Shown here one piece after another: positions 5,094 through 29,670 of a stretch of DNA of 31,927 nucleotides. The translations under genes and the position numbers were made by a program. The notes beneath the pieces are model-generated. The model saw nothing but the letters and a program-made list of their open reading frames with translations. It did not search any database and was not told the origin of the DNA. Source of the stretch: a virus; the IMG/VR virus record IMGVR_UViG_3300037427_000343, positions 1 to 31,927 of that record, one strand, 5' to 3'. Position 1 is the stretch's first letter; every line of letters starts with the position of its first letter.

Positions 5094-6665
5094 TTAGAAT
5101 TCTAATACGATTTTAATGTCTTCTTTTTGACGAACATTTCTTGTAATAGATGGTCTATTATCAAGATAGATGATCTCGCCACTCCTCTTATTTATTTCAG
5201 CATCTGCAAGACCATTTGTGAATTGTACACCTAGGTCTACAACTTTACCAGAAGGTGTTGTTGTAGATATGCCACTAAAGGTTTGATCTACATTGACACT
5301 GAAAGCAGTACTAGTTACTGCATTAGCAGCAGATTGGAAATTCAAAACAGGAGTTTGAACTGCAACCTCTCTACTATCCGTTGGATCGAATAGTGATTGA
5401 TTATATGATAAACTTCTATCTTGGAAATATTTAATCACTTTGGTATCAATATCAAAAGAAGCAACATATCCTCTGGCAGTACCAACTCCAGAAATATTTT
5501 GCTCAATCATAGTTCCAATACCGAGAACTTGTGAAGTATCTCCAGTAAATTTAAGTGCTCTCAATCCAGAGAATTCAGAAGTTTGTAAGTAAGTTGTACC
5601 AGAAGCACCAACTGCTTGTGGGTTTCTAATCAATCCAACTTGAGCAAACTTTGTATCAGATGCAAAATCATAAGATGATGCATCAAATCTTGTGTAAATT
5701 AGAACCTTATCAGTACCTAATTCCTTATATGCATTATATCCATGTCCTTTAGATGGTGGAATAATCGGACTTAATTTTGCAAATTTAGTAGCAGCACCAT
5801 TAATAGAAGACAAATCAACACGACCATAACTATAACCCCTTCCACCCTGCGTAACCTGTGCAGAAATAATCTGTCCATTGGTGTTTGTTAGAATTCTAAC
5901 TTTACCACCTGTACCATCACCAATTATATCAACTTCAATAGGACTTGACAAGAAACTATAACCAGTTCCTGCTTCATCAATTGATACTACTTTAATTTGG
6001 TTATTATTCGTATCAGAGTCTCCATTGTCTCTAACAACTTTGACATCAGAATCTGTTGTTGAAGTCCATTCATTAGGAACAGCAATATACTCAGTAGAGT
6101 CAAATTTCACGATATCCGCAGGAGGAACCGTAAACATGTACTTCCAAAGATACCCATCTCCACTAACACCAGCAGATGATGGTTCAAGATCAGTAAAAGT
6201 TGGTTCATCCAGAGATGCACTTGCAATAGTAGAAATACCAGCAGCACCATTATTAATACAAACATAGACTCTATAGTCTTTGTTCATAATATAATAGTTT
6301 GAGGAATATAATCTACTAGAGTTAGATACTAATGATCTATTATTCACATCATAATCATGACGGTACATATCATATGATGTACCTTTTGTCCAAGTAACTT
6401 TTCTAACCAATCTCCGAACATCTCCTGGGAAGATTTTTCTTCCAAAAAGCATTGTATCGTAGATATGATTGTTATAATCAATACTGTCAATAGGTGATGG
6501 TGGTTGAATTGTGGTACTATTCCAAGTATCAGTTCTTCCATAACCAGAAACAGTAGGATTTGCCAATCCTAGAAAAGCATAGTAAGAATTCGTACCTGCC
6601 GTAACATCATCCATGAAGTTATTAGCATTTATAATTCTAAACTGATCGGTTATAATTGCTGCCAT
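5094..6665 (-). CDS. 8: Baseplate wedge protein gp8
   Basis: This 523-residue protein is a T4 gp8 homologue, a subunit of the hexagonal baseplate wedge together with gp6, gp7, gp10, gp11, gp25 and gp53. Visible similarities to T4 gp8, compared from memory, are GDGYLWKYMFTVPP (169-182) followed by EYIAVP (192-197), the VGLIRNP segment, and the C-terminal SGEIIYLDNRPSI ending in IKIVLEF, which matches the T4 SGEMIYMENRPPI...INILFTF ending. T4 gp8 is about 334 residues, so this one is much longer. The extra length includes two Gly-x-Gly-Tyr modules (around 233-236 and 275-278) that also occur in the giant gp7-like neighbour. A TATAAATA late promoter lies about 37 bases upstream of the ATG, and the DUF4815 gene follows after four bases. 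Confidence 0.92.
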   Translation of the reverse strand: MAAIITDQFRIINANNFMDDVTAGTNSYYAFLGLANPTVSGYGRTDTWNSTTIQPPSPIDSIDYNNHIYDTMLFGRKIFPGDVRRLVRKVTWTKGTSYDMYRHDYDVNNRSLVSNSSRLYSSNYYIMNKDYRVYVCINNGAAGISTIASASLDEPTFTDLEPSSAGVSGDGYLWKYMFTVPPADIVKFDSTEYIAVPNEWTSTTDSDVKVVRDNGDSDTNNNQIKVVSIDEAGTGYSFLSSPIEVDIIGDGTGGKVRILTNTNGQIISAQVTQGGRGYSYGRVDLSSINGAATKFAKLSPIIPPSKGHGYNAYKELGTDKVLIYTRFDASSYDFASDTKFAQVGLIRNPQAVGASGTTYLQTSEFSGLRALKFTGDTSQVLGIGTMIEQNISGVGTARGYVASFDIDTKVIKYFQDRSLSYNQSLFDPTDSREVAVQTPVLNFQSAANAVTSTAFSVNVDQTFSGISTTTPSGKVVDLGVQFTNGLADAEINKRSGEIIYLDNRPSITRNVRQKEDIKIVLEF

Positions 6666-6701: not shown

Positions 6702-6709
6702 TATTTATA
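6702..6709 (-). promoter_or_regulatory. T4-type late promoter (TATAAATA) for gene 8
   Basis: On the minus strand these eight bases read TATAAATA, the late promoter element used by T4-like phages and their cyanophage relatives (sigma gp55 type). It is about 37 bases upstream of the gp8 ATG. The TAA stop codon of the giant gp7-like gene (6705-6707) is inside the motif, so one sequence serves as both stop codon and promoter. It implies that gp8 and the DUF4815 gene can be transcribed without reading through the 15.4-kb upstream gene. Confidence 0.75.
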
Positions 6710-9700
6710 AGGTTTTGTTAAATGCTCCAGTGTTTCTCAATCCAATATTGCGCCTTTGTGCAATTGGGAAGTTATCTAGATCAGGATTATAATCTAATCC
6801 TTTAACTGTTAAAGCAATTGGGTAACTGACATCTCTAATAGCAGAAGAGAAGCGTCCCCATGTAAATCTTGCTGCAGGATGTAAGGTTGATCCAACACCA
6901 ACTAATCCACTAACATCAGTTCCTGAATGGATGTTGCAGGTTATAACACCTGTTCTAGCACTTCCATCCCATGATAATGCATGTGCATAGTATATATTGT
7001 CAACTTCAAAGGTGCTAATACCAATAACATCCGAATCATGTGTATCTGTACTAGTAATTACTCCAGCAGCAGGTGATATACCTGTTCCGTAAACCTTAAA
7101 CGGATAACCTGTAGCAAATCCAGTAACAAATGATGCATTGTTAGAGTTAACTAAGTTATTAGTATCCAACTGGAATACAATACCAAGATCAGTACCAATA
7201 CCAACAGAAGTGGTAATACCAGTAATTAAACCAGTATAACCTTTAACATCAGTAACTAAAGGATCTATATCATTCCAAACTTCCCAGTTAACACCTGCTT
7301 GTGCAGTTGTTCCAACACCAACACCGTAAACATAAAGTCCAAAGTCATCAGTTAATTGACCATCAAGATCTCTAAAGTTCTCAGTATGATCAACATATAA
7401 TGTTGTATCAGTTGCAGCAAATCCAGCAATAACATTTGCTGTTGGATAGATTTGTGCTTCACTAGAATCTCTAGCTTTAGATACTATAGCACCACCAAAG
7501 ACTTTATCAGACTTTTGCTTATTCCATCTAATAGGTTTGTAGTTATCATTACTGACACCTCCTCCTTGATAGAATGGTGTTTCTACAACAGATGCAGTAG
7601 CAATCCTAGAAACAATTCTTGGTTCATTTTGATCAAAATTGTCTGTAATCTTAGGAACAGTATTTTTCTCAATTTCAGCACTCTTGAATAATTCTAATGA
7701 ATCACCTTCTTTAATAATCTCATTCACATCAAAGAATGAACTATCTGCACCAACTGTACCTCTATAGAAGAATATAAAGACATCATCTTCAATTGTTGGA
7801 GCAGTCTCAAAACTAACTGAAGTACCACCAGTAAACTCATAATGCTTATAAGGTTCTTGTAGAACACCATTAACAAATATCATTAATACTGGAGCAAGAT
7901 CAATCTCTCTCGAATCAGAATCATTATTATCAATTTCAAAACTGACTAATTGATTCTGATAATAAAGTGGGAATCTCTTTCTATTACCATCTTGGAATGT
8001 CTTAATATTGTCAATATAGTCAATATTACCAAATTGCCATGCAGCAACATCATCACTAAAGACATTAATAACTTCAATTTCAAATGGAATGAATAAATCA
8101 CCAGCAGTAGGATCAGTAGACAATCCAACTAGATTGATCTTATCACCTCTCTTAAATCCATAACCAAACTTAGTCATCTTCCAAATATAGACTTCATTCA
8201 ACTGGAATTCAGAACCAGTTGAGTATCCAACAAAATTAGTAGATAATCCAATAATATCTACTGTAATAGAACATCCAACACCAGTAGTTGTAGTATTACC
8301 AAGTCCTTCTCGATAACTACCAGTTACTGCTAAGTTACTTCCAGATGGCCAAGGAGCAGAAATATATGTATTGGTTGCAATATATCCACTACCAGCATGA
8401 TCAATACTATAGATTAAAGTACCACCTGCGCCAACTGTCGCTGTAACTGTTGCACCAGCACCACTCTTTGTACTATCAACAACGCAAATTGCTTCGGTAA
8501 TAGTTTGTAGATCAGTAGTATACCCAGAACCAAACGACAGTTCATAATAAGGAGCTGCAGTACCACCAGCATGATAAGAGTGTGGAATTGTACTTGGACC
8601 TGCATTGACAGTGAAAGTCTTAGCAGAAATGATTCCAACAACATCTAATTGCTGATCATAATCTGGATAAATGTTAGTTGTTAAACCAACTCTTACTATA
8701 CCACCACCAGTATAAGGATGTGTTAAAGTAGATACTCCAACAAATGTAGTAAAGGATGTAGTAGTACCTACAGACCTTACAGTGTAATAGTAACCTTGAA
8801 CACCACTAGGATAAGTCTTAGAACCATATGTACAAGTAACTCCGATACCTGCTAACTTAAAGTTCTCAGGTTTTACTAATCCATGATTATTAGCAGTAAA
8901 CTGAATAATACCAGTTGAGGGATTGTAAACTGCATTTGTTGGAGTTAAAGCAGCACCAGACCAAGAATCAATATAAAGTGCGCTAGAAGCAGCACTAACA
9001 AATTGATGACTGTAATCACCACCATACTGAACTGCTCCAGTTGTAGCACTTTGGAAGGTATGAGCGTAATTACCACCAGAGACTACTGCATTAGTTGCTT
9101 CATGCCCTGCACCTATATCATAACGATGTTCAGATGTGTCAGTTGCAATACCAACTTGAAGTGTAATATATCCAGTCTGTTTCTTAAGACCATCAGTAAC
9201 TGCACTATCAAATCTATGATCAAACTGTTGAGAAGGACCAGATTTGCCAACATCAACCGCAAATGTATTAACAGTTGTGCTTGCAATTGATACCCACTTA
9301 CCGCTAATCGGATCAGAAGGTCTTGGATATGAATGTGCAATACGATACCAATCTCTATAACACTTGAAGGAAATTGAATTATCATCAAACTTAACTCTAT
9401 CACCATTCATGAATCCATGACTAGCGACTGTTACAGTCATAATACCAGCAACACCATCATATACACCATCAGTTATTGTTCTTGTAGTTGCACCAACACT
9501 AACAATATCAATTGGTTGATCATATGCCCTATCACGCTTTTGATCCATACTACCAACACCAGCAGCCTGGAAAGTATGTCCATAAGCACCACCACCATGA
9601 ACTTGTGATCTCTTAATAGCACCAGTTACACCAGATAAGAATATGTGGTCTGATTGTCCTGTAAGACCAGACTGCATACTATTAACTCTAAAGGTATTGG

Positions 9701-12700
9701 TGGTTACATTAGAAACCTTAATCCACTTACCACTGTAAGGATCAGTTTCTCTAGGATATGCATGTGGTGTACTATTGTCATCCATAGCACAGGTAAAGGA
9801 TACTGCTCCAGTATCAAACATAACATAGTCACCATTACTTAATCCATGATTAGTAGAAGTAACAGTCATGATACCTACAATACCATCATACTGCGTACCA
9901 GATTCAGCAGTTAACCCTTCATGCGGTACATAATGATGAGTTGAAATATTTGTGGACGGTTGTGACGCTAAAACTTGGAACGAAATTGAATTTGCGCTCG
10001 TAGAAGCGATAGAAACCGCAGTTGTAAATCCAGGATCACTAGATCTTGGATATTTGTGTAGACTCTGGTATGTGTCTAATCCACACCTAAATGACATCGA
10101 TTCAGGTGAAATTTGGATAGATTGACCAGTCATCAAGCCATGGTCACCTATCGTAGCTGTTACGATGCCAGCAGTGGGGTCGTAGACCGCCGAGGAGATA
10201 CTATAAGGTGCTATAGGTGACTTACCTACCTCAACAGTAAATGAAGTGGTTCCTATGCCCGTTATCGGCAACCATTTGCCACTAACAGGATCAGATGATC
10301 TTGGATAGGTCTTCGTAGAAGTACCGCCATCCATGTCGCACTTGAAGGAAATAGAGTCATTATCGAAGCGTATATAATCGCCATCATGAATAAGTCTACC
10401 GCCAGGTACGACTGTAACGGTCATAATACCAGCATTTGCATCATAAACTGCGCCATTTACAGTCTGAGTATCTATTGTATTGCGTGGATATGCGTGAGAA
10501 GAAATATAACTATCAGTTGCACAACGGAAAATAAGTGATCCAGTCGCTAACTTAATCGCAGTTTGTTCTGCTAGTCCATGTTGACCAATATTAAGATCAA
10601 GGAAACCAGTTGCAGGTGTATAAGTTGCAGTAGTAACACTGTAATTAACAGTAGGTGATGTACCTACAGTAATGGCAATGCCAGTTGCAGTAGTAGAAGC
10701 AACTGAAATTGCTTCATTATAATAAGGATCAGTTAATCTAGGATAAGACTTAGTTTGACTATTTCCATCCATAGCACACTTAAAGTCAAGTGAATTGCCC
10801 TTAAGTTTAATAGTAGTACCTGCCATAATGTTATGGTTAGGTATAGTCATCGTCATGATACCTGCTACAGGATCATAAACTGCATTAGTAGGTGTCCAAC
10901 CAACATTACTAGTAATACCAACAAATACATCAAAAGTATTATTAGTAACATTCCTTATTTCAAGGAACTTATCATTTACAGGATCAGATGCTCTTGGATA
11001 TGTGTGATCAGTTGCATATTCATCCTGACTACATGTGAATGTTAAAGCACCTGTAGTAATACCAATTAGATTAGGATCAGTGAAGTTGTGATTAGCATCA
11101 GCAATAATTGTGGCAATACCGCTAACATGGTCATATACAAAGGAGGTAATACCAATAGTGCTTCCATACCCAAGACCAGATTTACCAACATTGATAGTAA
11201 TACTATCTGCAGTAGTCGTAGCAGAACCAGTCTTATTATAGAAAGGATCAGTTAATCTAGGATATGCATGGTATGTTGCATAGCTATCCTTATCACAACT
11301 CATAGTGACTGACTCTGTAGCAAGTCCGACAATATTGTTATTAGCATATACCAGACCTACAGCAGTAGATCCGATGGATAATGTCATCGCACCTGTCAAT
11401 GCGTTATACCTAGCATCAGATACATCTGCGTAGACTAAAGTTGAAATACCAACATTTAAACTAAAAGCAGTAGTTGAAGTAGTTGTTATACCAGTTGTTA
11501 CACCGCTAATTGGGTCAGTACTACGAGGATAAGTATGCTGAGTAGCATGATTATCTCTAGAACAAGTATATGTAAGTGAATTTGCGTCAAGAGTAATAGT
11601 ATCACCAGTAGTCATACCATGAGCAGTACCAAATGATAATGTTAATACACCAGTACTTGCGTCATAAGTAGATCCATTTGGACTCTTCTGATTACCTGAT
11701 TCTGCACCACTTTGGACATTGACCGCATTAGTAGCAGTACCACCATCCCAAGTATGAACATAATCACCACCCATAATTAGAGCATTGGAAGTAGCACTTC
11801 TGAATATGTGCTTATAACCAATACACTCCATTTGGAGTCCATTTAGATAAACTGGATCTTCAATCTTAAGATTATGAGGTGCAACTGTGCTAACCTCCAT
11901 AATTCCACTTTCATTATTATAGAAAGCAGTACTTACAGCAACTGCGCTTCCTACTGTTGGTACACCAACAATACTTGTTAGAGTACCATTACTATCAAAT
12001 AGTGGTTTTACATTAGCACCTATGAATGGAGCATATCCTCTACCTGGTGTAGATGCAACAGAAACAATGATGCCACCTCTAGGTAACTGGTTTTCATTAA
12101 TATCTCCAGTGTCTATTATTGGAGTATCATATCCAAAGGAACTGATACCAGTAAATACAACGCTACTAATTCCTGCAGCTTCTTCAATCTTAAAGTTTGC
12201 TTTTGTATTATTTTCACTATATGGTGCTTGGAATATATTATTAATGAATAGCACACCGTTACCACCAGTTGAACCAATACCAGTTACAGCAGATCCAATA
12301 GTTGTCAATGGATAGGTAGTTTCTAACCCATTAAACCTCTCAGACATATCATCAAAAATTTGATTCTTAGCATAATCTTGTCTTAAGAATGTTCTACCAC
12401 CAAATGTTGCTCTTGCAAACGGAAGATTATTTGGATTAATAATACCAGTATCACCACCAAGAGGTGCTTGTGTGAAATGTACCTTACTATCTAAGATCTG
12501 GAATGAACCTCTAAAGAGTCTAGCGGTTTCACCAGCAGCATGTGCAGTAGCAGCAGTACCAATCGCACCTCTTTCTATTTCTACTAATGTCCAAGTACCA
12601 ATACCAACAGTAGGACCAATTGTAGTAGTACCAAATCCAACAGTTCTTACAATTGAATACTCATCTTCAATTTTAAGCAAATCTCCTGATCTGATAGATG

Positions 12701-15700
12701 AAATACCACTAAGAACAAATGCGGTTACAAAACCAGCAACAGGAACATCAAGAGTATAATTGATAGCAGTATAAGAAATTGGTTTCTGTACAAGACCACT
12801 AATAGAGATCATTGACTTAGAATCTCTCTTTCTCATAGAGAATCTATGTTGGTTACCAGTACCAGTATTTTCTAAGAAAGTTACTCCAGCACCGATTTTA
12901 GCATCATTTTCTGTTAATGCTATTCTATACTGTTGATTATTATCCTTAATAGCATAAACTGTATCTGGAAGATAACCAGTTGTACCTGCACCTGTCTGAT
13001 ATACTAAAGCAGATCCACCTACACCAACAAGGTTGGAATCTGGTTTATATGTTAACTGTTCGTAAGTAGAGAAGAAATGTTTCTGATTAAATTGACCTAA
13101 TGAATAGTCAAGTATAGTAGGATCAGATATATTACACTCTTGAGCGTAAATAGGATATCCTCGATACTTAAGATCAAATGATTTGATATCTCTGTTATTG
13201 ATTCCTAGATATACATTTTGTGCAACTGATTCATATGATTGTCCATAATTTAATTCACCAATACCATCAATAGTACCGTTGTTATCCAACTGTAGGTACA
13301 TAACCTCATTATAAGCAGTAACACTAACAACCCCTGCTACAGAAGGATGGAACTCTAAATTAATATTTCCATCTGGTCTATAGGTAGATCCAAATGTACC
13401 AACACCTGTTGTAGAACCAATAGCAGCTAAAGGAGTTTCAGTTATAAAGTTTTGTTGATTATATGGATCAGTTAGTAAGTAAATTTGATGTAATGACTGT
13501 GTAGCACCATAAGAGACATGAACTGTTGATTTAACTGAAAGATCAGTTATACTTGATATACCAGCAATAGTTGTAATACCAGATTTAGACTGACTAGATG
13601 CTTCTATACGACCAGATCTTTCCGTTCCATCTGGGGTAAATGGAATCTTAAATCTATAATTGCTTGGTCCTACTGTAGATGGATCAATAGCAATTGTCTT
13701 ATATTTGACATTAACTGTATTTGTACTTCCATTTTCAAAATCAAGTTTAAGTAATCCACCTTCAATTTTAGAACTAAAGGTTCCTATAAAGTCTGGACCA
13801 GATAATCCACTTAAATTCTGTTTAGAGTTAAATGCAGTTAACTCAGTTAGATAAGTATCTACTCCATTATGCATTACTGCATATTCAAAGTAATCTACTT
13901 GTTTTGCAGCACCACCACCAGGATTATCAATAACTATAAAATGTATAAGAGCAGCTTGAGTACTTAAGGTTGATAAACCAACAACATTAGTTGTAGTGGA
14001 AATTCCAAGTGTAGATGCAGCAGCAACTTGAGTAAGACCACCATCTAATCGAATATGACTAAATGCAGAAGTTCCAACACCTACAGAATCAGCAAAATTC
14101 TGTTGCCAAGTCTTAATTTCATAATTAGTGTCAAATGCTTCATTTGGTCTAGCAATCAAATAAGTTTTTGATGATGCAGGATCATAATCAGTATCAAATA
14201 CAATATATCCAGTACCAAGACCAACCTGATCAAAATTCTTCATTTCTTGCTTTTGAAGCAAGTAAGTATCACCATCAATAGTTACAGAGATAAATTCATT
14301 TAATTGATACTGATTTTTCTTAGGATCTTCTGCATGATGAACAGTTTGAGTAAACCATCTTTGAAAATAGCGTCCTGCAGGATATTGAGCAACAACTCTA
14401 TAATCACTTAAATCATTAGACTCATTAGACACAAATTGAGGTGAAATATCGTCAATATTCAAAACTCTATTAGTTCTGTTTAAAATAAAGTCAGAAAGTC
14501 TAGTAGTCCGTAATTCAATAAATTTTGAAATATTTCCTTGTGCTAAGAAGTCTCTTCCAAGATCAAATGGATATATTGAGTCAACTCTAATAGGATCTCC
14601 AATAAAGTCAAGAACAAGACCACCAGCATCTTCTGCTGGCTTAATAGTATCTCCAGGAACACCTTCTGCAATAATTTCAGTATTAGCAAAGTTTTTCATC
14701 CCAGATGGATGAACTATATCATTAACATAGGTAACTAATTCTTCATATGTCTTTTTACTTTCAATAGCATAAGACATATTCTGATAGTAGTCATTATCAG
14801 GCAATACTTGGTTAGTATCATTAATAATACCAATATTGTCTCTCCATCCAACTAAAGTTTTAACAGAAGAGGCAATATTAAAACTACCATCAAATTCAGT
14901 TATACCAATAACTCTACAAAGAGAACCACTAAGTTTACCTATTAAAATATCATTTACTTCTAAAGGTTCAGCACCACTAACAATAATCTTAGCAGCATTC
15001 TCATCAATGAAATCTAACTGAATATCAGCAAGAGCATTTTGATTTCTCTTGAATGGTTCGTTAGGTATGAACTTAGAAGTACCTTTAACTACCTCAAATC
15101 TCGCAAGATACTCTGATTGAGTTATTTGACCAAATCCAAACGAAACAGTTGCTCCAGTACCAGGATTGGTTGAAATACCGTTTAGATCAAATGTAACTTG
15201 TCTTGGGTTTGTTGCATCATTGTAATCAGTAACAATAAATGGAGCAAACTTATAATCACCAGAGTTATACCCAGTACCACTTCCAGCATCGTATGATATA
15301 CCCTCAACTAAACATGAATCACCAATACCAATAGGTTCGTTAGTATATCCTAAAACTGGAGTTGTAATCTTACAAGTAAGGATTCCAAGTTGCGCTTCTG
15401 CACTAACAATACTAATACCGTTACTATTTCTAATAGGTGAAACGCCATAGTCATTATTTGACAATCCAATTGGAGGTACAGAAACAGTTGCACTAGTAAC
15501 TGCAGAATCGCTTAATTCGCAAGTAATTAACCCAGTATCAACAATTGTACCTGTTCCTTTATCATATAATGCAAGTGCAGGAGCATTAATATAGAATTTA
15601 CCACCATAGGTAACTCTAACTTCATCAATAGTAGCAAAACTATCAATCTCAACAACTCTAGGAATAAATGCGTCTGGTTTTAAAGTATTATCTGATGGAT

Positions 15701-18700
15701 ATCCATAAACATCATCAGGAACCGTCATTTCTGCCAATTTATTAATTGAAGACGATTCAGGAATTAAAGTAGCATTAATACCACTACCAGCAATACTAGA
15801 AATACCAGGAAGTCTAGAATAATTTAATCCACGGTTAGCAATCCGTATAGTAGAGATTCCACCAGTAGCAGAAGCAGATTTAGTCGTATATTCTAATACA
15901 TCGACATCTGAAGCATTATATTGTAAAGATTCTGGTCTAAATCGTAAATTAATTGAAAATTCTGTAGATCCAATACTAGTAATATCATAAGAACCAGTAT
16001 ACGAACTATCAACATATTTAATCTCAGTTCCATTAACTACAGTAGAATCAGTAGTAACAATTCCACTTGGACCAAATAAATTGTAGAATAATACTGGAGG
16101 AATGGTATCAGAGTGTTTTAAAGTAAGTGTTGGATGATATTCATTAGTAGCAACAGGAATAGTAGACCCAATACCAACAGTTGCTAAAGTACTTACTCCA
16201 ACAACCTCAAATCCAAGACTTGTACCAGATCCAACAAATTCATTAAAGAAAGTTGCATCATAATAGAATTTTAAGTCATATCCTTGTAATGTTGAGTCAC
16301 TAAGATCAAAAACAAGATCACTATTAGAATATGGTCTTAATTGTGGGTTAATAGGATTAATAGTTTGTCCAGAACCACCTTGAGAGGTAATATTGACAAC
16401 ATTAGGAGTGCCTAATGCTTCTTTAAGAGTATTTGCAAGAGATAGTGTATTATCGTCTATTCTGATAACATAATACTCTCTTTCGGTTACTCCATCAGGA
16501 AGATTGGATCCATAATAGAGAATCCTGTCTCCAGTTATTAATCCATGACTATTTGCAGTAATTCTATTACTAGTTGTGTTTATTCCAGTCTGATCTATGT
16601 TAAATGGATTTGATATGATATAATTATTGATAAGTTGAATCTTAGTGTATGTTGTAGATCCAATACCAGTAGCAAGTCCAGGTTTAACGATTAAATCGAT
16701 CTTATCAGTATCAGACAACTCATGTTCACTTTCAGTCTGAATTGTAGATGTTATCTTTTGGACAGATCCAGTAACTTGATTGATTTCTTGCTTTTCAAAC
16801 AAATAATCATACTCAGTAGTACCAGTATTAACAAACCAAAGATCTTTAGAAGATTTAGTGGTCTTTATACCAATAGTATCATTAGTTTTGGGTGTTACAT
16901 AAAGACTTTGACCGTCTGCTAGGTTAAAAGTACCAGCATAATTAAAATCAGTCGTAGCACATCCAATTGTCTTACTAGTTCCTGGTGGGAAATAGAATTT
17001 AATCTCATCATTAGTTTTTAAACCATGATTAGGCCAATATATTGTTTGAACTAATAAAGATCTATCAGTAGTAACACCAAGATACTGATATGAATTTGTT
17101 ACTGACAATCCAGGAGTTGTACCGACACCAACTGCTTCAGTTGCGTCAAAATAGTACTTTATATTTGGTTTAGATGTAAATTTATCCGTTATAAGAGGAA
17201 TCTCTATTTGATCTGCATAATAAGAGATACCTAATCCAATAATACCAGAAGTAGTAACTCCAAGAGATCTACGAACCCTTAATGCACTATCATTTCGGTA
17301 AATATTAAGAATACTAGCAGTTTCTGTTCCGATTCCAACAGTTGTTCCAATTCCAACTAAACTTGGTGTATATGATGAGAATCCAACAGTAGAACCAACA
17401 GAAACAGTTGGTGGAATGTACTGAACTCTAATATCAGTTACTAATCCAACAAATCCATCTTCTAACAATGTAGTTGAATAATTTACTGAGGCAATTTTAT
17501 GAGATGCAGTTAATTTATTAACACTAGTAGATAATCCAGCAACTTGAATGAAATCTTTAGAATTTAAGTCATGGGATGGTGCTATATGAGCAATAACCCT
17601 ATCATTTCTCCATTCAAAAGTTGTTCCAGTGTAATTAAGGAATGTTGTTTCAATTTTAGTAACTTCTTTACCAGTTAAAGTATCAACATATGCTAATGCA
17701 CCAGATCCACCAGTATCTTCATTAGTAAAGTCAATTTTTGCACCTATAGTGTAACCTGTTCCTGGAGAAGAAATTCTAATATTGTCAATTGATCCAATAT
17801 CAATTTTATATGGTGTTGCAACATTAGGTATCTGCTTATAAGGTTGATATACGAAATCATAAGCAACCCCATCTCCAAACATCTTATATGGAAGGGTATT
17901 TCGTACTAATTGTGAATTTTCAAAATCAAATGCTTGCTGTTTGATTTTTTCACCAGATACAGTGTTAACTCTTAATGGAGTACCTCTATAAGTATCACCA
18001 ATGTAATAAGGAAACTCTGGATTTAATATATTATCTACTGAAGCATGATAAACATAAGCACCTTCTGGAAATTCGGGTGTTTTTGCAAATCTACCATTAT
18101 GTTCATCTAAACTACCTTCTGTATTATAATAATAATCTTCAATAAAGAATCCTGCTTCATAATCTGATATAGATGGTCTATTATAAACTCTATTTGAATC
18201 AAGTTCATATGATGTAGTCATCCTTGTCGCTGACGACTGAATATCATCAATATCAGTAAATCCATAAGGTCCATAAATTGGATTTCCATCATATGCCCAT
18301 CCAATAATGGGAGAATGACCTGAACCATCATCATTAAACGCATTTCTTACAGTTGCTCCATATGCAACAGATTCAATTGCTAATCCATCTTCAACTGGTG
18401 CTAGGTAATCACCATTTAATGTTCCAGTAGTCTTATACTTGTTAGCAACTAGTCTTCTTACCTTTGTAGAGAAAGTTGCGGAATCACCAGGTGCTTTAAC
18501 AGTAACTGATGTTGTAGTAGAAGCATAACCAGCACCTTGAGCAAGAACTCTAACAGAGGAAATTTCTCTTGCGTTCATTACAGCACGAAGTTTAGCACCA
18601 GTAGCAGTACCTACACCAGTAACTGTTAAATCTGGAGGTCCATCATAATCTTGACCACGAGCTTGAACAAATGCATCAATAATTCTACCATTAACAATAG

Positions 18701-21700
18701 TTAATCCAATTTGTCCAAAATTACCAACATTAATATCAACTGAAGGTGCTTTTTCAAAATTAATAATATTTGATCCATAATCTCTACCTTTATCGTAGAG
18801 AATAGTATCTACAACTTGACCACGAACAATAGGATTAGCTTCAATTGTCTGTGGGGTATCTGCATCAGTAATAACATTAACATCAACTGTTACAGAAGGA
18901 TAATAGAAGTCTTGATATCCTGTACCATGATTAGCAAAACGAACATATTCTTTATTGAGATAATTTGCTGTATTTGGAGTCCTAGTAGTAGCAATTCCTG
19001 AATAACATAATCTAAATCTATCTTCATCCAGTTTTAATACTTGATATTGTGCAGTAGAACTAAGACCACTAACAACAGATCCACCAGTAGTTGATATACC
19101 ATAATGAACTACTTCACCATTACTAAATCCATGATTTTCAAATTCAACAAAATCTCTAAGAGTACTAATACCTGCAGGTGCTACAGATAGTCTTCTATTT
19201 GTATATCCAGATCCACCCTCTAGAATTGTCATTCTAGAAATGCGTCGTTTTGTATAATAGTCTCTAAACTGATGAATACCAGTATTTAAATCAGCTGCAG
19301 TTGTACCAAATCCAACAGTATTGGCAACACCAGCAACAGCATCAGATTTTGTTCTATAAAGTTTAAATATCGTTGCACTAGTCACACCAACATAATATGA
19401 TTGACCTTCAACCAAACATGTATCAATACCAGCAGATGCTGCAGTATGTAATCCAATAACAGGATTATTATTTGAAGTATAAAGTACTCTATCCCCAGTA
19501 TTATAATAATGGGGTTTATCCATGATAAATCGACCACCCTTACCATCTAGAGGATCAATATTACCACCATCATAGAATGATTTTGCGTTAAATGTAAATT
19601 GTCTATATGCTAATTCTGTTACTGCCTGTGCTTTTGCGCCTAAACCATTTCCACCATGTATATCAACGGAAATAATCTTTTTAACCTCATAATCAATAGG
19701 ATCAATTAAAACATCAGTAACTGTACCTGCAATAGATACTCGACCATAAGCAGTATTAATTCCTGTACTATTTTCAATTGTTATTTGAGGAGGATATAGT
19801 ACATCATAATCTCTACCAGAATTAACAATATCTAATGATTGAAGAGGTCCATAATAAATGAATTTGTCAGATTTATAGTTGGTAATTTCAACACCATTAA
19901 TCAACATTCCAGTATTACCATCCAAAGTTCTTTCAGATGTTGTTTGTTGTTGGTATCCCTTATCTAAAAACTGTTTTAAAATAAATCTCTTAAGTGTTCT
20001 ACCTGGGAAAATAGATTTTCTTGCCTGTTCTATTCTAACAAAATCATGAACTCCAGTAGCAACATTTGGAGGACTAAATTCTACTGAAATACCAGAAGGA
20101 ATAAAAGATCTAGAAGGATATAATTTAATTTTGTTTTTCTGAGATAAAACCTCTACAAAATAAGAATTCTTATCTAAATTTCCTATAGGTACTGTATTTC
20201 CACCTGGAACATAAGCAACTTCTTCACCAGTTCTAAATGGTACATCCTGTGGGAATGAAATAATAGTATATTTGTCTGTTAATGTATTATACCCCTGCCA
20301 AGCACCGCCAGATACAGTTGGGTTTGTTAAAACAGAATGAACTTTATCACTAATGATTGGATATGAAGGAATAGAGTTAGAAGCAACATATCCTTCCTTT
20401 ATATTGTTCTCTGTATTCTTGGCATCAAGAATATATGTATTAGTAACATCGGATAATATCTGATTCTGACCACCGATAATAGGTACTATACTACTAGTTG
20501 CTTTTTCCTGAATTCTTCTTATATCATAAGATAATCCAGGAATAATTGAGAAAGTTCCACCAATACTAATTGAATTATTAGTGTTATTAACATAAGTAAC
20601 AGGTAATGAAGCAGCAGCTACTGTTTCTGTGTTTCTAACCAATAATTCTACAGTATCACCAACCTTTAAACTGGACTTATCAATATCACCTGTTAAAGTA
20701 ACAGTAGAACCACTTAAATCTTCGATTAAATATCTTGCACTAGTATTATAAATCCAAGAATTAAAGAATGTTTGTTCCCAAGTAGAATTTACAGCAGGAT
20801 TGGATATATTTCTTCCAAGGTTCTTAATTGCAACTCTAGAAGTTTCAGATAATCCATACAAATCTTGAAGAGAATCAAATTCCCTCAAAACACCAGTTAT
20901 TCTCATATTAACTTGCTTTGAGGTATCATTATCCTCATATCCATACACTACAGTTGGTGTATAGATGCTAGTAGCAGAAAGAATATCCTTAGTGGTTGTT
21001 GTAACTCCAATAAACTGGTTTACAGTCTTTTCAGTATAGTCTAATTTTTGATATGATGTCTCTGTAGTTAAACCAACATCAATAGTACCTGTTTGACCAA
21101 ATCCTATAGTAGAATCAACTGTAACAACAGTTGCACCAAGTCCAACTTTACCAATTACTTGAGTTTTACCTGGAACAACAAATGTACCTTGAATTAAGTC
21201 TCTATCATCATATCCAATAAAGACAGATAGACGATAATAGTCGTCTCTAATCTGTACAACCTCTGAAATAGGTCCACTAGCAGCATTTACTAATGTATTA
21301 TTAGGAACATCGTCCTGATAAAGAGTTTGACCAATCAGTTTAATCGGATCTCCAGAAATTAACTGAACAGCAAAAGACTCTCTTCTTAAATAGTTGGCAT
21401 AAGAGGGTTTTATGAGGTATTTTTCAAGATCATTGATTTTTGGTTCTAAACCAAATAATGCTTTAAATAAAATCTTGAAAGATTCGTCAGTACCCTTAGA
21501 TTCATATAAACTTCTTGCTTCTTTTATAAAATTATTAACATCTAAGTCAGGACTAAGAGGAACTCCTTCTAAACCAGGTGTATACTGTACTTTTAACTTT
21601 TCATAAAATTCTTTAAGGAATAAAGAACTCAAATTTTGAATATTTGCACCTGATGAATGAGAATCTGCTATTGATTCTGTAAATGTTAGATTTTTTGGAT

Positions 21701-22115
21701 CATTTATCGCATGATATGTTGTAATTCCACTAAAACCTCTTACACAACCAGTAAAACTTGTTTCTGTTTTATCAGTATATGTAATAATCTCATTATCAAT
21801 TTTTAAAAGACCCCATTTTTGAGGAAATCCTTTAGTATTACCACTAACAGTAATAATATCATCAGTAGTAGTAATACTAGAAGCAGTTGTTACTACACCA
21901 GAGATAACATCTTTGGTTAAATTATCAACCCTAATATATTTGTCAATGTTTTCGCCAATATCTACTACTCCACCCTGATATTCCTGAGAAATATAATATT
22001 GCTCTAAAAAATTCTCAAAAAGAGGATTTTCATTAATAGCAAATTCGGGAGCCTGATCAGAGACAACTTGATAAGTCTTAACTCTGTTAGATAAGGGGCT
22101 ATAGGTTTCTATCAT
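6705..22115 (-). CDS. 7: Giant gp7-position baseplate wedge / virion structural protein
   Basis: A single open frame of 5136 residues between gp6 and gp8, where T4 has gene 7 (1032 residues). Three stretches resemble the C-terminal core of T4 gp7 as I remember it: YESKGTDESFKILFKALFG (about 208-226), LIGQTLY (about 258-264), and an SYAIES...VNDIVHPSGM segment with its His at 2469. In T4 the second and third are close together, so here about 2200 residues separate them, and about 2650 more follow the third. The insertion holds several Gly-x-Gly-Tyr beta modules, many VGIGTT-like linkers, and a YHYH-family motif GWAYDGNPIYGPYG near residue 1272. The extension holds NGVLQ-P type modules (one near 4700-4790) and nine C-x2-D...YPR-x2-DP repeats. 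No signal peptide or membrane segment is evident. The ATG is six bases after gp6. Baseplate location is inferred from synteny and the split core. Confidence 0.85.
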   Translation of the reverse strand: MIETYSPLSNRVKTYQVVSDQAPEFAINENPLFENFLEQYYISQEYQGGVVDIGENIDKYIRVDNLTKDVISGVVTTASSITTTDDIITVSGNTKGFPQKWGLLKIDNEIITYTDKTETSFTGCVRGFSGITTYHAINDPKNLTFTESIADSHSSGANIQNLSSLFLKEFYEKLKVQYTPGLEGVPLSPDLDVNNFIKEARSLYESKGTDESFKILFKALFGLEPKINDLEKYLIKPSYANYLRRESFAVQLISGDPIKLIGQTLYQDDVPNNTLVNAASGPISEVVQIRDDYYRLSVFIGYDDRDLIQGTFVVPGKTQVIGKVGLGATVVTVDSTIGFGQTGTIDVGLTTETSYQKLDYTEKTVNQFIGVTTTTKDILSATSIYTPTVVYGYEDNDTSKQVNMRITGVLREFDSLQDLYGLSETSRVAIKNLGRNISNPAVNSTWEQTFFNSWIYNTSARYLIEDLSGSTVTLTGDIDKSSLKVGDTVELLVRNTETVAAASLPVTYVNNTNNSISIGGTFSIIPGLSYDIRRIQEKATSSIVPIIGGQNQILSDVTNTYILDAKNTENNIKEGYVASNSIPSYPIISDKVHSVLTNPTVSGGAWQGYNTLTDKYTIISFPQDVPFRTGEEVAYVPGGNTVPIGNLDKNSYFVEVLSQKNKIKLYPSRSFIPSGISVEFSPPNVATGVHDFVRIEQARKSIFPGRTLKRFILKQFLDKGYQQQTTSERTLDGNTGMLINGVEITNYKSDKFIYYGPLQSLDIVNSGRDYDVLYPPQITIENSTGINTAYGRVSIAGTVTDVLIDPIDYEVKKIISVDIHGGNGLGAKAQAVTELAYRQFTFNAKSFYDGGNIDPLDGKGGRFIMDKPHYYNTGDRVLYTSNNNPVIGLHTAASAGIDTCLVEGQSYYVGVTSATIFKLYRTKSDAVAGVANTVGFGTTAADLNTGIHQFRDYYTKRRISRMTILEGGSGYTNRRLSVAPAGISTLRDFVEFENHGFSNGEVVHYGISTTGGSVVSGLSSTAQYQVLKLDEDRFRLCYSGIATTRTPNTANYLNKEYVRFANHGTGYQDFYYPSVTVDVNVITDADTPQTIEANPIVRGQVVDTILYDKGRDYGSNIINFEKAPSVDINVGNFGQIGLTIVNGRIIDAFVQARGQDYDGPPDLTVTGVGTATGAKLRAVMNAREISSVRVLAQGAGYASTTTSVTVKAPGDSATFSTKVRRLVANKYKTTGTLNGDYLAPVEDGLAIESVAYGATVRNAFNDDGSGHSPIIGWAYDGNPIYGPYGFTDIDDIQSSATRMTTSYELDSNRVYNRPSISDYEAGFFIEDYYYNTEGSLDEHNGRFAKTPEFPEGAYVYHASVDNILNPEFPYYIGDTYRGTPLRVNTVSGEKIKQQAFDFENSQLVRNTLPYKMFGDGVAYDFVYQPYKQIPNVATPYKIDIGSIDNIRISSPGTGYTIGAKIDFTNEDTGGSGALAYVDTLTGKEVTKIETTFLNYTGTTFEWRNDRVIAHIAPSHDLNSKDFIQVAGLSTSVNKLTASHKIASVNYSTTLLEDGFVGLVTDIRVQYIPPTVSVGSTVGFSSYTPSLVGIGTTVGIGTETASILNIYRNDSALRVRRSLGVTTSGIIGLGISYYADQIEIPLITDKFTSKPNIKYYFDATEAVGVGTTPGLSVTNSYQYLGVTTDRSLLVQTIYWPNHGLKTNDEIKFYFPPGTSKTIGCATTDFNYAGTFNLADGQSLYVTPKTNDTIGIKTTKSSKDLWFVNTGTTEYDYLFEKQEINQVTGSVQKITSTIQTESEHELSDTDKIDLIVKPGLATGIGSTTYTKIQLINNYIISNPFNIDQTGINTTSNRITANSHGLITGDRILYYGSNLPDGVTEREYYVIRIDDNTLSLANTLKEALGTPNVVNITSQGGSGQTINPINPQLRPYSNSDLVFDLSDSTLQGYDLKFYYDATFFNEFVGSGTSLGFEVVGVSTLATVGIGSTIPVATNEYHPTLTLKHSDTIPPVLFYNLFGPSGIVTTDSTVVNGTEIKYVDSSYTGSYDITSIGSTEFSINLRFRPESLQYNASDVDVLEYTTKSASATGGISTIRIANRGLNYSRLPGISSIAGSGINATLIPESSSINKLAEMTVPDDVYGYPSDNTLKPDAFIPRVVEIDSFATIDEVRVTYGGKFYINAPALALYDKGTGTIVDTGLITCELSDSAVTSATVSVPPIGLSNNDYGVSPIRNSNGISIVSAEAQLGILTCKITTPVLGYTNEPIGIGDSCLVEGISYDAGSGTGYNSGDYKFAPFIVTDYNDATNPRQVTFDLNGISTNPGTGATVSFGFGQITQSEYLARFEVVKGTSKFIPNEPFKRNQNALADIQLDFIDENAAKIIVSGAEPLEVNDILIGKLSGSLCRVIGITEFDGSFNIASSVKTLVGWRDNIGIINDTNQVLPDNDYYQNMSYAIESKKTYEELVTYVNDIVHPSGMKNFANTEIIAEGVPGDTIKPAEDAGGLVLDFIGDPIRVDSIYPFDLGRDFLAQGNISKFIELRTTRLSDFILNRTNRVLNIDDISPQFVSNESNDLSDYRVVAQYPAGRYFQRWFTQTVHHAEDPKKNQYQLNEFISVTIDGDTYLLQKQEMKNFDQVGLGTGYIVFDTDYDPASSKTYLIARPNEAFDTNYEIKTWQQNFADSVGVGTSAFSHIRLDGGLTQVAAASTLGISTTTNVVGLSTLSTQAALIHFIVIDNPGGGAAKQVDYFEYAVMHNGVDTYLTELTAFNSKQNLSGLSGPDFIGTFSSKIEGGLLKLDFENGSTNTVNVKYKTIAIDPSTVGPSNYRFKIPFTPDGTERSGRIEASSQSKSGITTIAGISSITDLSVKSTVHVSYGATQSLHQIYLLTDPYNQQNFITETPLAAIGSTTGVGTFGSTYRPDGNINLEFHPSVAGVVSVTAYNEVMYLQLDNNGTIDGIGELNYGQSYESVAQNVYLGINNRDIKSFDLKYRGYPIYAQECNISDPTILDYSLGQFNQKHFFSTYEQLTYKPDSNLVGVGGSALVYQTGAGTTGYLPDTVYAIKDNNQQYRIALTENDAKIGAGVTFLENTGTGNQHRFSMRKRDSKSMISISGLVQKPISYTAINYTLDVPVAGFVTAFVLSGISSIRSGDLLKIEDEYSIVRTVGFGTTTIGPTVGIGTWTLVEIERGAIGTAATAHAAGETARLFRGSFQILDSKVHFTQAPLGGDTGIINPNNLPFARATFGGRTFLRQDYAKNQIFDDMSERFNGLETTYPLTTIGSAVTGIGSTGGNGVLFINNIFQAPYSENNTKANFKIEEAAGISSVVFTGISSFGYDTPIIDTGDINENQLPRGGIIVSVASTPGRGYAPFIGANVKPLFDSNGTLTSIVGVPTVGSAVAVSTAFYNNESGIMEVSTVAPHNLKIEDPVYLNGLQMECIGYKHIFRSATSNALIMGGDYVHTWDGGTATNAVNVQSGAESGNQKSPNGSTYDASTGVLTLSFGTAHGMTTGDTITLDANSLTYTCSRDNHATQHTYPRSTDPISGVTTGITTTSTTAFSLNVGISTLVYADVSDARYNALTGAMTLSIGSTAVGLVYANNNIVGLATESVTMSCDKDSYATYHAYPRLTDPFYNKTGSATTTADSITINVGKSGLGYGSTIGITSFVYDHVSGIATIIADANHNFTDPNLIGITTGALTFTCSQDEYATDHTYPRASDPVNDKFLEIRNVTNNTFDVFVGITSNVGWTPTNAVYDPVAGIMTMTIPNHNIMAGTTIKLKGNSLDFKCAMDGNSQTKSYPRLTDPYYNEAISVASTTATGIAITVGTSPTVNYSVTTATYTPATGFLDLNIGQHGLAEQTAIKLATGSLIFRCATDSYISSHAYPRNTIDTQTVNGAVYDANAGIMTVTVVPGGRLIHDGDYIRFDNDSISFKCDMDGGTSTKTYPRSSDPVSGKWLPITGIGTTSFTVEVGKSPIAPYSISSAVYDPTAGIVTATIGDHGLMTGQSIQISPESMSFRCGLDTYQSLHKYPRSSDPGFTTAVSIASTSANSISFQVLASQPSTNISTHHYVPHEGLTAESGTQYDGIVGIMTVTSTNHGLSNGDYVMFDTGAVSFTCAMDDNSTPHAYPRETDPYSGKWIKVSNVTTNTFRVNSMQSGLTGQSDHIFLSGVTGAIKRSQVHGGGAYGHTFQAAGVGSMDQKRDRAYDQPIDIVSVGATTRTITDGVYDGVAGIMTVTVASHGFMNGDRVKFDDNSISFKCYRDWYRIAHSYPRPSDPISGKWVSIASTTVNTFAVDVGKSGPSQQFDHRFDSAVTDGLKKQTGYITLQVGIATDTSEHRYDIGAGHEATNAVVSGGNYAHTFQSATTGAVQYGGDYSHQFVSAASSALYIDSWSGAALTPTNAVYNPSTGIIQFTANNHGLVKPENFKLAGIGVTCTYGSKTYPSGVQGYYYTVRSVGTTTSFTTFVGVSTLTHPYTGGGIVRVGLTTNIYPDYDQQLDVVGIISAKTFTVNAGPSTIPHSYHAGGTAAPYYELSFGSGYTTDLQTITEAICVVDSTKSGAGATVTATVGAGGTLIYSIDHAGSGYIATNTYISAPWPSGSNLAVTGSYREGLGNTTTTGVGCSITVDIIGLSTNFVGYSTGSEFQLNEVYIWKMTKFGYGFKRGDKINLVGLSTDPTAGDLFIPFEIEVINVFSDDVAAWQFGNIDYIDNIKTFQDGNRKRFPLYYQNQLVSFEIDNNDSDSREIDLAPVLMIFVNGVLQEPYKHYEFTGGTSVSFETAPTIEDDVFIFFYRGTVGADSSFFDVNEIIKEGDSLELFKSAEIEKNTVPKITDNFDQNEPRIVSRIATASVVETPFYQGGGVSNDNYKPIRWNKQKSDKVFGGAIVSKARDSSEAQIYPTANVIAGFAATDTTLYVDHTENFRDLDGQLTDDFGLYVYGVGVGTTAQAGVNWEVWNDIDPLVTDVKGYTGLITGITTSVGIGTDLGIVFQLDTNNLVNSNNASFVTGFATGYPFKVYGTGISPAAGVITSTDTHDSDVIGISTFEVDNIYYAHALSWDGSARTGVITCNIHSGTDVSGLVGVGSTLHPAARFTWGRFSSAIRDVSYPIALTVKGLDYNPDLDNFPIAQRRNIGLRNTGAFNKTL
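8690..11690 (-). repeat. Coding tandem repeat array in the giant gp7-like protein
   Basis: Nine diverged protein repeats lie in frame inside the giant gene. Each unit has the order Y-D-x-x-x-G-[IV]-[ML]-T, then H-G-[LM], then [FY]-x-C-x2-D, then x-[HKS]-x-YPR-x2-DP, then a Thr-rich strand. The YPR codons fall near 11525, 11260, 10994, 10741, 10486, 10303, 10046, 9756 and 9325. Spacing is 253-290 bases, except for a short unit of about 183 bases (10486 to 10303) and a long one of about 431 (9756 to 9325). A tenth, degenerate unit (TCTYGSKTYPSG) is near 8810. His-rich linkers such as GHTF and SHQF are interspersed. The DNA copies are diverged, so this is an old protein repeat and not a fresh DNA duplication. 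It may form a row of beta domains projecting from the baseplate, which is inference. Confidence 0.85.
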
Positions 22116-22121
22116 TCTTGT

Positions 22122-24041
22122 TTACTGTCTAGTAATTGTACCATTAGAGTAACTAGATGTGACCTTATACCCAATTCCAGAGATTTGTTGTCCAGAAGAT
22201 ATAGTGTCTCTCACAATATTTATCGTAGTATTTGACATGTCTAATTGAAGATACAAATCCTTCAATCCAATAATATCATTGGATTCTGGAAACGCTTGTA
22301 TTTCAATAATACCCGAAGCAAGTGAGGATGATGTAATATTAATAGTATTAATCATTATTTCACCTTTTTCATAATCTACTGTTCCTGCAGAAGGAATAAC
22401 AACAGGTGCATCTTCACCTGACAATTCAGTTATTTGAATAACAGCAAGATCACCTGTTTTTAAGTCTGCATGTGGTAAATCTGTAAAGTATAATGTATTA
22501 CCATTATTAGAAATAGTAAATCCAGTAGATTTAATATTTTTACCTTTAGGATTTACATGAAATGAATTACCAAAGCATAATTCATACTGCGAAGATGCAT
22601 TAAATATAGGTTTCAAATCTCTTCTCATCTTCAATTTAGTAATATTGGAAACAAATGCGCTATTGGATTCATCAATAATTTTCTGAACCTCAGAAAACTT
22701 AAATCTACCACCAAATGCATTTAAATTAGTAGATTTTCCATAATTTGTTAACGCATCACTCAATTGAGACTTCAATCCATTCGTATCACTAAAAATATTT
22801 GCATTATAATATGCATTAACATCCATTTCAACATAAAGAACCTTCAAATCAACGATTCTTTGATTAATCCCTGCAATAGAGTAACTTTTTAACCTATCTA
22901 AAATTTGTGTTTTACTAAAGTCAGACAAATAAGTGGAATTTCGAGGTTTAATGCTTAAAATAACTGTTCCATATTCAGGAGGATCTAGTTCTTCACCTCC
23001 AATGACGGAAACTGACTCTGCATCAGGGAATATACTCTGTACAATACCTTCGTAATCCCTTCCTGTAACCGCCCTGTACTGCGATGAATAGACTCTAGGT
23101 GCAATATACTTAATTGACTCTATATCTTCGATATCACCGCCTCCTTTAGCGGTCTGTACTGTTGTAATAGTTATGGTTTGTGATGCAGGAAGAGGATTTC
23201 CAGCATCATCTACAGAATCACCACTAAATGAGAAGAATTTTCCATCATTTCCTGCTTTTCCATCGGTAATAATGTAACTTACTTCAATAATATCACCATT
23301 ATCGAGTTTTTTACCGAATAGTCCATCACCAAACATCAATTCATACTTCTCATCCTTAATTTCTTGAATAAGATAGATGTTTGACTTCTCATTAATACCT
23401 GTAATATTATCAATTCTCGAATATTCAAGACCAGAAGTGGATCCAGACTTCCTTACAAACACTCTAATCGAATCAGCATCAATAAATGAGTTATCTAATA
23501 CAAATCTTTGGTCTAAACTACCACTAACTACGAAATTTTTCTTTAAAAGTGTACCTTGATATACTGTTATGTCTCTAAATTGCGCTGTTCTTGGTGGATT
23601 TACTAAAACATTGCTTCCAGCATCAATTGGACTAGTAACAGTTATATTATCTGGGATAGAAAATGTAAAAGAAGTGTTATTTTGTGCTCCTACACAGATT
23701 AATCCTTTGCGTAATCTAACGCTATTGCTATTTCCGTTGAATTTAAAATCAAAATTTATAATTGCTTGAGCAGATTTACGAGATCTTGGTACATATCCTA
23801 TATTTCTTGCTAAAGATACGACATTTTCTCTTAGAGTTGCTGAATCCAAGAAGGATTCGTTGACAACCATGTTACTATTAAATGCTGTAATATAAGTATT
23901 GTACGCTAAAATGTCAATTAAGATAGAAATATTCGATCCTTCAAAGTCAAAATCAGTAAAATTACTGTTTGCTCTAAGATAAGAACGAATTTGTGCCTTA
24001 ATTTGGTCAAAATCAAGGTTAGTAAACTTGGTTACGGGCAT
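22122..24041 (-). CDS. 6: Baseplate wedge protein gp6
   Basis: 639 residues, close to the 660 of T4 gp6. The N-terminus MPVTKFTNLDFDQIKAQIRSYL, followed by FEGSNISILIDILAYNTYI and FLDSATLRENVVSLARNIGY, is the typical gp6 / baseplate J-like opening. Gp6 forms the ring of wedge dimers that ties the six baseplate wedges around the hub and helps drive the change to the contracted state. A mid-protein stretch with YSSQYRAVTGRDYEGIVQSIFPDAESVSVIGGEE fits the baseplate J-like core. The gene starts four bases after the gp25 stop and ends six bases before the giant gp7-like gene, so it belongs to the transcript from the late promoter at 24466. Confidence 0.93.
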   Translation of the reverse strand: MPVTKFTNLDFDQIKAQIRSYLRANSNFTDFDFEGSNISILIDILAYNTYITAFNSNMVVNESFLDSATLRENVVSLARNIGYVPRSRKSAQAIINFDFKFNGNSNSVRLRKGLICVGAQNNTSFTFSIPDNITVTSPIDAGSNVLVNPPRTAQFRDITVYQGTLLKKNFVVSGSLDQRFVLDNSFIDADSIRVFVRKSGSTSGLEYSRIDNITGINEKSNIYLIQEIKDEKYELMFGDGLFGKKLDNGDIIEVSYIITDGKAGNDGKFFSFSGDSVDDAGNPLPASQTITITTVQTAKGGGDIEDIESIKYIAPRVYSSQYRAVTGRDYEGIVQSIFPDAESVSVIGGEELDPPEYGTVILSIKPRNSTYLSDFSKTQILDRLKSYSIAGINQRIVDLKVLYVEMDVNAYYNANIFSDTNGLKSQLSDALTNYGKSTNLNAFGGRFKFSEVQKIIDESNSAFVSNITKLKMRRDLKPIFNASSQYELCFGNSFHVNPKGKNIKSTGFTISNNGNTLYFTDLPHADLKTGDLAVIQITELSGEDAPVVIPSAGTVDYEKGEIMINTINITSSSLASGIIEIQAFPESNDIIGLKDLYLQLDMSNTTINIVRDTISSGQQISGIGYKVTSSYSNGTITRQ

Positions 24042-24438: not shown

Positions 24439-24465
24439 TAACAAGTTGGCATTACATATCAGGGT

Positions 24466-25658: not shown

Positions 25659-25824
25659 TAGTTACAATATGCGAAATAATATCAGGTGATGGATAACCAC
25701 ATTCATAATAACATTGAGATAACTCAATCATCTTATCCATAAAATCCTCTTCAGAGAGACCTGTATAGATCTCTCCTTCTTGGATTACTATAGTATAAGA
25801 CTCAGATGACTCGTTGCTTTTCAT
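25597..25824 (-). CDS. Hypothetical protein, 75 aa
   Basis: 75 residues. The N-terminal two thirds look folded: SYTIVIQEGEIYTGLSEED forms a short beta segment, followed by a helix FMDKMIELSQCYYECG. The tail from about residue 58 is low-complexity and Asn/Asp/Glu-rich (SNGDNNSNNPEED). That tail is the part overlapped by the 47-aa basic gene, so its composition may be shaped by the other frame. The start overlaps the 3' end of the glycosyltransferase-like gene by 23 bases. The family is not recognised. Confidence 0.6.
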   Translation of the reverse strand: MKSNESSESYTIVIQEGEIYTGLSEEDFMDKMIELSQCYYECGYPSPDIISHIVTNGKTVHQSNGDNNSNNPEED

Positions 25825-29635: not shown

Positions 29636-29670
29636 AGGGTTCAAAATGCTTTGGTTTGCTTTACTCTTTA

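Follow-up and report, generated by a model that had tools for sequence, protein, structure and literature searches.

Among the described counterparts of T4 gp7, gp17 of phage XM1 (242 aa) has a discontinuous domain I made up of residues 1-79 and 107-133, and the loop between them (residues 80-106) and the C-terminal stretch 201-242 each hold six tail spikes (PMC10457771). For pelagi- and cyanomyophages, T4 Gp7 was reported to be absent, with VrlC as its substitute (PMC7029224), and Sullivan et al. 2010 placed gp7 in the non-cyanophage core and called it highly divergent (PMC3037559). The records of P-SSM2, P-SSM4, P-HM1 and S-SM2 already name a gp7, those of P-SSM2, P-HM1, S-SRM01 and ACG-2014f use gp7 or baseplate wedge initiator, and gp7 is spread over several PHROGs with conflicting names. 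We found no solved structure of a giant gp7 in the PDB. The gene itself was already known; judged against the open-licence literature searched, what is new here is the split-core anatomy, the size series and the evidence against the claimed absence of gp7.

We analyzed a viral fragment of 31,927 bp (IMG/VR IMGVR_UViG_3300037427_000343), referred to below as the window, in which all recognisable genes lie on the minus strand. By its gene content, the source of the window is a Kyanoviridae-like (marine cyanophage-like) T4-type phage, with a PF23790 Kyano_Gp96 match at 29291-29644 and hundreds of cyanophage matches. We are confident that its 5,136-residue ORF is the gp7 wedge protein of such a phage, with an insert and a tail that probably form outward arms. 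The genes of the wedge region and the parts of the giant protein are as follows.

2..5089, minus strand, VrlC homologue (DUF4815), 1696+ aa (PF16075 E=3e-58)
5094..6665, minus strand, gp8, 523 aa (PF09215 E=1e-14, phrog_438 E=3e-148)
6705..22115, minus strand, giant gp7 (baseplate wedge protein), 5136 aa (phrog_2885 baseplate wedge subunit)
6708..14645, minus strand, C-terminal extension, residues 2491-5136 (from length comparison among relatives)
9126..11765, minus strand, array of about nine repeats of 85-90 residues, residues about 3451-4330 (from self-comparison)
14646..14843, minus strand, second core half D-x-x-YYQ-x-x-SY...HPSG, residues 2425-2490 (from profile comparisons)
14844..21170, minus strand, main insert of about 2,100 residues, residues about 316-2424 (from the size series in relatives)
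18033..18326, minus strand, YHYH domain inside the insert, residues 1264-1361 (PF14240 E=8.9e-24)
21171..21410, minus strand, domain V equivalent with LIGQTLY, residues 236-315 (from chained profile alignments)
21411..21620, minus strand, first core half with the SKG helix, residues 166-235 (from profile alignments and searches)
21621..21920, minus strand, small hairpin insert, residues about 66-165 (gap in the profile alignment to a compact gp7)
21921..22082, minus strand, N-terminal helical hairpin of the core bundle, residues 12-65 (aligned to residues 6-58 of the compact gp7 L235)
22122..24041, minus strand, gp6, 639 aa (PF21379 E=3e-18, phrog_219 E=1e-191)
24046..24444, minus strand, gp25 (PF04965, phrog_261)

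The wedge cluster runs in the order gp25, gp6, the giant ORF, gp8 and VrlC, the last at a position that matches genes annotated VrlC in relatives. The giant ORF (6705-22115, minus strand) is a single uninterrupted frame of 5,136 codons, and the gene-7 position claimed for it in the earlier note was borne out by gp6 (PF21379) on one side, with gp25 beyond it, and gp8 (PF09215) on the other. The neighbouring genes have features of their own. The VrlC/DUF4815 protein (2-5089) contains a long proline run, and its gene is incomplete at the contig end. The gp8 protein (5094-6665) has 523 residues vs 334 in T4, and a GxGY-type module (phrog_460) is common to this gp8 and the gp7 insert. A DUF1257 gene adjoins gp25 (24487-24867, PF06868 E=3e-21), and upstream of the wedge genes lie a glycosyltransferase-like protein (25805-26557, a weak assignment) and a 2OG-Fe(II) oxygenase (26608-27237).

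In the PHROG search, phrog_2885 (baseplate wedge subunit) matched residues 1-2500 of the ORF with E=0 and the remainder with E=1e-281, covering residues 10-2486 and much of the chain up to about 3704. Residues 1-2500 were matched by 465 phage records, 93 of which cover at least 80% of that stretch, all at less than 60% identity. On these matches, giant gp7 is a form common to hundreds of cyanophages and not a singleton. We tested the gp7 name against T4 with separate profiles for each core half. The first-half profile, built from eleven diverse relatives without T4 rows, gave only two matches among 177,635 distinct PDB sequences, both of them gp7, from T4 (E=2e-7) and KP1 (E=1.7e-6). The second-half profile without T4 rows had a single match in the whole T4 genome, at gp7 865-897 (E=0.001), which is the RFVHPVG segment; PDB-wide, its T4 match was weak (0.71, rank 6). 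A second-half profile of close relatives only was likewise weak against T4 (E=0.07), which was resolved by adding distant relatives and searching T4 genome-wide. In profile-profile comparison with T4 gp7, the first-half core reached P=1.1e-18 and the second-half core P=1.5e-5 at the VHP site, and none of the controls (T4 gp6, gp8, gp9, gp10, gp11 and all reversed sequences) was significant. Both segments thus align to consecutive parts of T4 gp7 in the comparison that the earlier note had suggested, and its picture of a wedge protein whose core was opened by a huge insertion and then extended agrees with this result. Gp7 identity and a split core are supported.

A single-sequence PDB search with ORF residues 1-2500 found no match, and PF23786 Baseplate_wedge matched residues 191-226 at 20.4 bits, below its curated cut-off of 27. 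The T4-type gp7 family phrog_964 had no match in the window at E<=1, the ORF beginning at the hairpin; the N-terminal domains of T4 gp7 (residues 1-640) were not found in the ORF, and domain VI (PF21456) had no Pfam match in the window at E<=1. Domain V (PF21427) was also without a direct Pfam match in the window and was reached by chained profile alignments only. A separate gp7 elsewhere, which would have spoken against the earlier note, was not found: each half occurs once per record in the searched genomes and contigs. We rejected an assembly artefact or gene fusion, since more than 30 relatives have complete ORFs of 3,890-5,458 codons from stop to stop and dN/dS is low.

We then placed the boundaries of the core. 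The ORF carries YESKGTDESFKILFK at 204-218, LIGQTLY at 260-266 and SYAIES...IVHPSG at 2448-2472, and the T4 gp7 counterparts are FYSTKGIEASYKFLFK near residue 733 and LVGQTIY near 781, followed further toward the C-terminus by SYYVMKIKS...RFVHPVG. All three motifs were found within a few residues of the places first given for them, but T4 reads S-T-K-G and not S-K-G. Over its whole length, the stretch 13-313 of the ORF is matched by residues 6-191 of L235, a compact gp7 of 590 aa (P=3e-15), the one gap, about 100 residues long, falling within the N-terminal hairpin. L235 aligns in turn with T4 gp7 641-830 (P=2e-14), a span that takes in hairpin, SKG helix and the greater part of domain V, in agreement with the match to phrog_964 positions 644-829 (E=2e-6). 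ORF residues 236-313 align with domain V. From these two alignments, domain V appears to be largely retained, and the main insert begins after it, at about residue 316, and stops before the D-x-x-YYQ-x-x-SY...HP segment at 2425. The split described in the earlier note is thus seen, but it spans about 2,100 residues rather than about 2200 and starts after most of domain V. By alignment, residues 12-315 (minus the small loop insert) and 2425-2490 are the conserved halves of the wedge core together with domain V. The hairpin insert (21621-21920, ~100 residues) is a third insert in its own right; its counterparts in Syn19 and P-SSM3 are about 500 residues long, and in some relatives, L003 and L004 among them, a portion of it reappears downstream of domain V.

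The structural comparison was made with the compact protein. Foldseek of the AlphaFold2 model of L235 against 350,542 PDB chains ranked 5iv5 (E=7e-7), 9f4a (5e-6) and 5hx2 (1e-4) first, with the next entry at 0.2. All three are T4-type baseplates; 5hx2_A is gp7 and the other two chains are of gp7 length. The pLDDT fell below 50 over the hairpin and the last 32 residues, so that the core was not resolved in this model, and such low confidence might be expected without gp6. Since the wedge-fold domain I is discontinuous in published structures, the insert site is suggested to be a permissive one, and the insert seems to occupy a family-wide insertion point of the gp6/gp7 fold.

The main insert is predicted to be beta-rich, as the earlier note had proposed. 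The AlphaFold2 model of residues 320-1480, made with 38 sequences, has 38% strand and 6% helix at a mean pLDDT of 70.8, and residues about 750-1230 have pLDDT mostly above 80 and 52% strand. Foldseek of this model against solved structures gave no significant homologue. The insert contains a YHYH domain (PF14240, 84.9 bits against a cut-off of 25), which has been proposed as a metal-dependent hydrolase (PMC7824862). Its histidine pair is not intact: the signature is YVYH in the window and YAYF in most relatives that could be read, and catalysis by this domain is therefore doubtful in this branch.

The C-terminal extension is about 2,650 residues in the window, absent or 16-20 aa in many compact relatives and up to 3,141 aa elsewhere. 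Because the chain ends 16-20 residues past the second half in many compact forms and in S-B68, the long tail is a separate addition. The tail repeats match the tail-fibre PHROG families phrog_5342 and phrog_17885, and their copy number differs among close relatives. A DNA-level tandem-repeat search detected no array, the repeats being too diverged. The dS in the repeat array is 0.34-0.48 vs 0.55-0.87 elsewhere in the ORF, and this lower value suggests that the array was recently exchanged. Part of the tail (6708-14615) weakly resembles the E1 FCCH beta-barrel (PF16190 E=0.026). Uba1 chains, not significant, appear in the Foldseek list of the insert model.

By homology with T4 and XM1, wedge and trifurcation unit would be assembled from six copies of the gp7 core, each paired with (gp6)2. 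The insert may leave the core where loop 80-106 of XM1 gp17 does, and the tail where the XM1 C-terminus does. As these two points together anchor the twelve spikes of XM1, the gp7 chain itself probably extends outward here and supplies the baseplate periphery with two sets of beta-domain arms. We infer that the insert and tail may serve as peripheral host-contact arms which would take over the structural and host-contact work of T4 gp9-gp12. The gp9/gp10 and gp11 families were detected in none of S-SRM01, P-HM1 and S-B68 with T4 as the positive control, so something else must form the periphery, and gp7 is a candidate; in Syn19 a gp9-like match was seen. Likewise, gp9-gp11 were undetected in phiM12, a phage with a gp7 of only 1,007 aa, which shows that the absence of these proteins need not stem from a giant gp7. 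In its widest and more tentative form, the proposal is that the post-domain-V loop and the C-terminus are general sockets on which phages mount the machinery of host contact. In marine T4-like phages, the entire outer baseplate would then consist of six gp7 chains instead of gp9-gp12, with the variable repeat array as its exchangeable part; each chain would weigh ~0.56 MDa, by scaling from the 724 kDa reported for a 6,619-aa protein of S-SZBM1.

The alternative that survives best is that insert and tail stiffen the baseplate as an inner structural shell or an inter-wedge belt, rather than forming outward host-contact arms; we regard this alternative as possible though somewhat unlikely. It would fit the near-constant length of the insert in the window's group (2,091-2,172 aa) while the tail varies, the lack of any recognised receptor-binding domain in the insert other than YHYH, and the degradation of the YHYH histidine pair in most readable relatives. 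The use of both exit points for spikes in XM1 (PMC10457771) argues for outward arms instead, as do the variable repeat number of the tail between close relatives and the fibre families that the repeats match.

The strongest argument that the two halves belong together comes from natural variation in relatives. Loci were fetched using only the first half of phiM12 gp7, and an HMM of the second half, built from cyanophage rows only, was run on 685 ORFs from the fetched loci and five reference loci. It matched 65 ORFs, 62 of which also carry the first half. Two other ORFs, at L200:2989 and L204:9250, contain the second half with no first half detected, which we read as a split gene or frameshift, and in S-SKS1 (HQ633071, 127908-132226) the C-terminal part of a giant gp7 lies on two annotated ORFs, again a split gene or a sequencing error. 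Within single ORFs of relatives, the halves are 57 to 2,761 residues apart, in the series 57, 331-382, 576-932, 1,087-1,298, 1,592, 2,091-2,172, 2,300, 2,666 and 2,761. The smallest spacing is that of Desulfovibrio phage 7757, whose 587-aa gp7 lies between gp6 and gp8 and found no relatives in a viral-contig search. S-B68 has 1,592, P-HM1 2,300, Syn19 2,666 and P-SSM3 2,761; the range 2,091-2,172 is that of the window's group, including L009 (2,142), which shows no difference from the window in residues 320-1480.

In a tree of the two halves, a single supported group (95/97) unites the inserts of at least 1,592 residues, and a separate group contains those of 1,087-1,298. The window row was dropped from this tree as a duplicate of L009, and the root is not firm, with several long branches meeting there. 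If the small form is ancestral, at least two expansions past 1,000 residues would have taken place. The reverse course, in which compact gp7 is derived and an ancestral large insert was lost in T4, XM1 and others, appears improbable. It draws on the uncertain root and on insert sizes that are structured by clade with few changes (5 on the tree), but the distant lineages are small (about 100 residues in T4, 57 in the Desulfovibrio phage, 473 in HTVC008M), and inserts above 1,000 aa in two separate clades fit repeated growth.

We also considered whether the giant chain is made and packaged whole. Against three relatives, dN/dS is 0.15-0.29 in every segment of the ORF, the tail included, with 0.25-0.29 in the insert. 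Published virion proteomes of two cultured cyanophages, obtained by mass spectrometry, speak for large gp7s as virion proteins. S-CREM2 ORF122 (gp122, 1,937 aa) was found in the virion proteome with 91 unique peptides and 27.2% coverage (PMC10665884), and a 6,619-aa, 724-kDa protein of S-SZBM1, named 'baseplate wedge initiator' by annotation, with 71 virion peptides (PMC9146016). ORF122 carries both gp7 halves, at 182-237 and 1859-1921, 1,622 aa apart. A coverage of 27.2% corresponds to about 527 of the 1,937 residues, whereas only some 316 lie outside this interval, so insert peptides must be present in the virion. Large phage proteins can undergo cleavage, and processing is invisible from sequence, but that the chain is cut, or the insert removed like an intein, to leave a mature gp7 of ordinary size is very unlikely: no intein family matched the window at E<=1, by which we rejected an intein as the explanation of the insert, and the S-CREM2 coverage exceeds the residues outside the insert, although a chain that is cut and retained is still compatible with it.

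The published view that T4 gp7 is missing and replaced by VrlC (PMC7029224), which would make the giant ORF an unrelated structural or fibre protein, is hardly tenable: T4 gp7 as a single-sequence query finds nothing in giant-gp7 genomes and gp7 stands in the non-cyanophage core list of Sullivan 2010 (PMC3037559), but both core halves match gp7 in order, and VrlC lies beside gp7 in the window. It does so in HTVC008M as well, where both halves are detected (E=1e-23 and 9e-18) in the gene flanked by gp6 and gp8. The claim that cyano- and pelagimyophages lack gp7 is thus contradicted by these alignments. The results support the name gp7 for a gene variously called gp7, structural protein, hypothetical or head closure in cyanophage and pelagiphage records. 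They suggest that one wedge core accepts inserts of 57 to about 2,760 residues at a single point, and a testable prediction follows for the baseplates of abundant ocean phages.

Compared with known systems, the window ORF is closest to the phrog_2885 cyanophage gp7s or baseplate wedge initiators of P-SSM2, P-SSM4, P-HM1 and S-SRM01, which are its orthologues. S-SRM01 and P-SSM2 share 36-39% identity with it over nearly all of residues 1-2486, whereas tail length and repeat number differ within this family, and the 3,895-aa gp7 of S-SRM01 has no YPR-type repeats by the pattern used. The gp7 of phiM12 and the compact IMG/VR gp7s (phrog_17744) have both halves and, judged by profile alignment, domain V as in the window, but with inserts of 331-1,298 residues and tails of 16 to 566. 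In HTVC008M, I899_gp055 (phrog_3465) also has both halves and lies between gp6 and gp8, but its insert is 473 residues; it is recorded as 'head closure Hc2' (L276:33435-36485), a likely misannotation that matches the phrog_3465 name. T4 gp7 (phrog_964; Gp7_helical, Gp7_5th, Gp7_6th) shares the slot between gp6 and gp8 and, judged by profile alignment, the order of helical hairpin, SKG/TKG helix, domain V and VHP segment. T4 gp7 starts with about 640 further residues and includes domain VI, and neither feature was detected in the window; in the window protein, about 2,100 residues separate domain V from the VHP segment, and another 2,650 follow it. By its published description, XM1 gp17 has a loop-interrupted domain I and a C-terminal extension at apparently corresponding places, but the loop has 27 residues and the extension 42, where the window has about 2,100 and 2,650, and the XM1 spikes are a separate protein.
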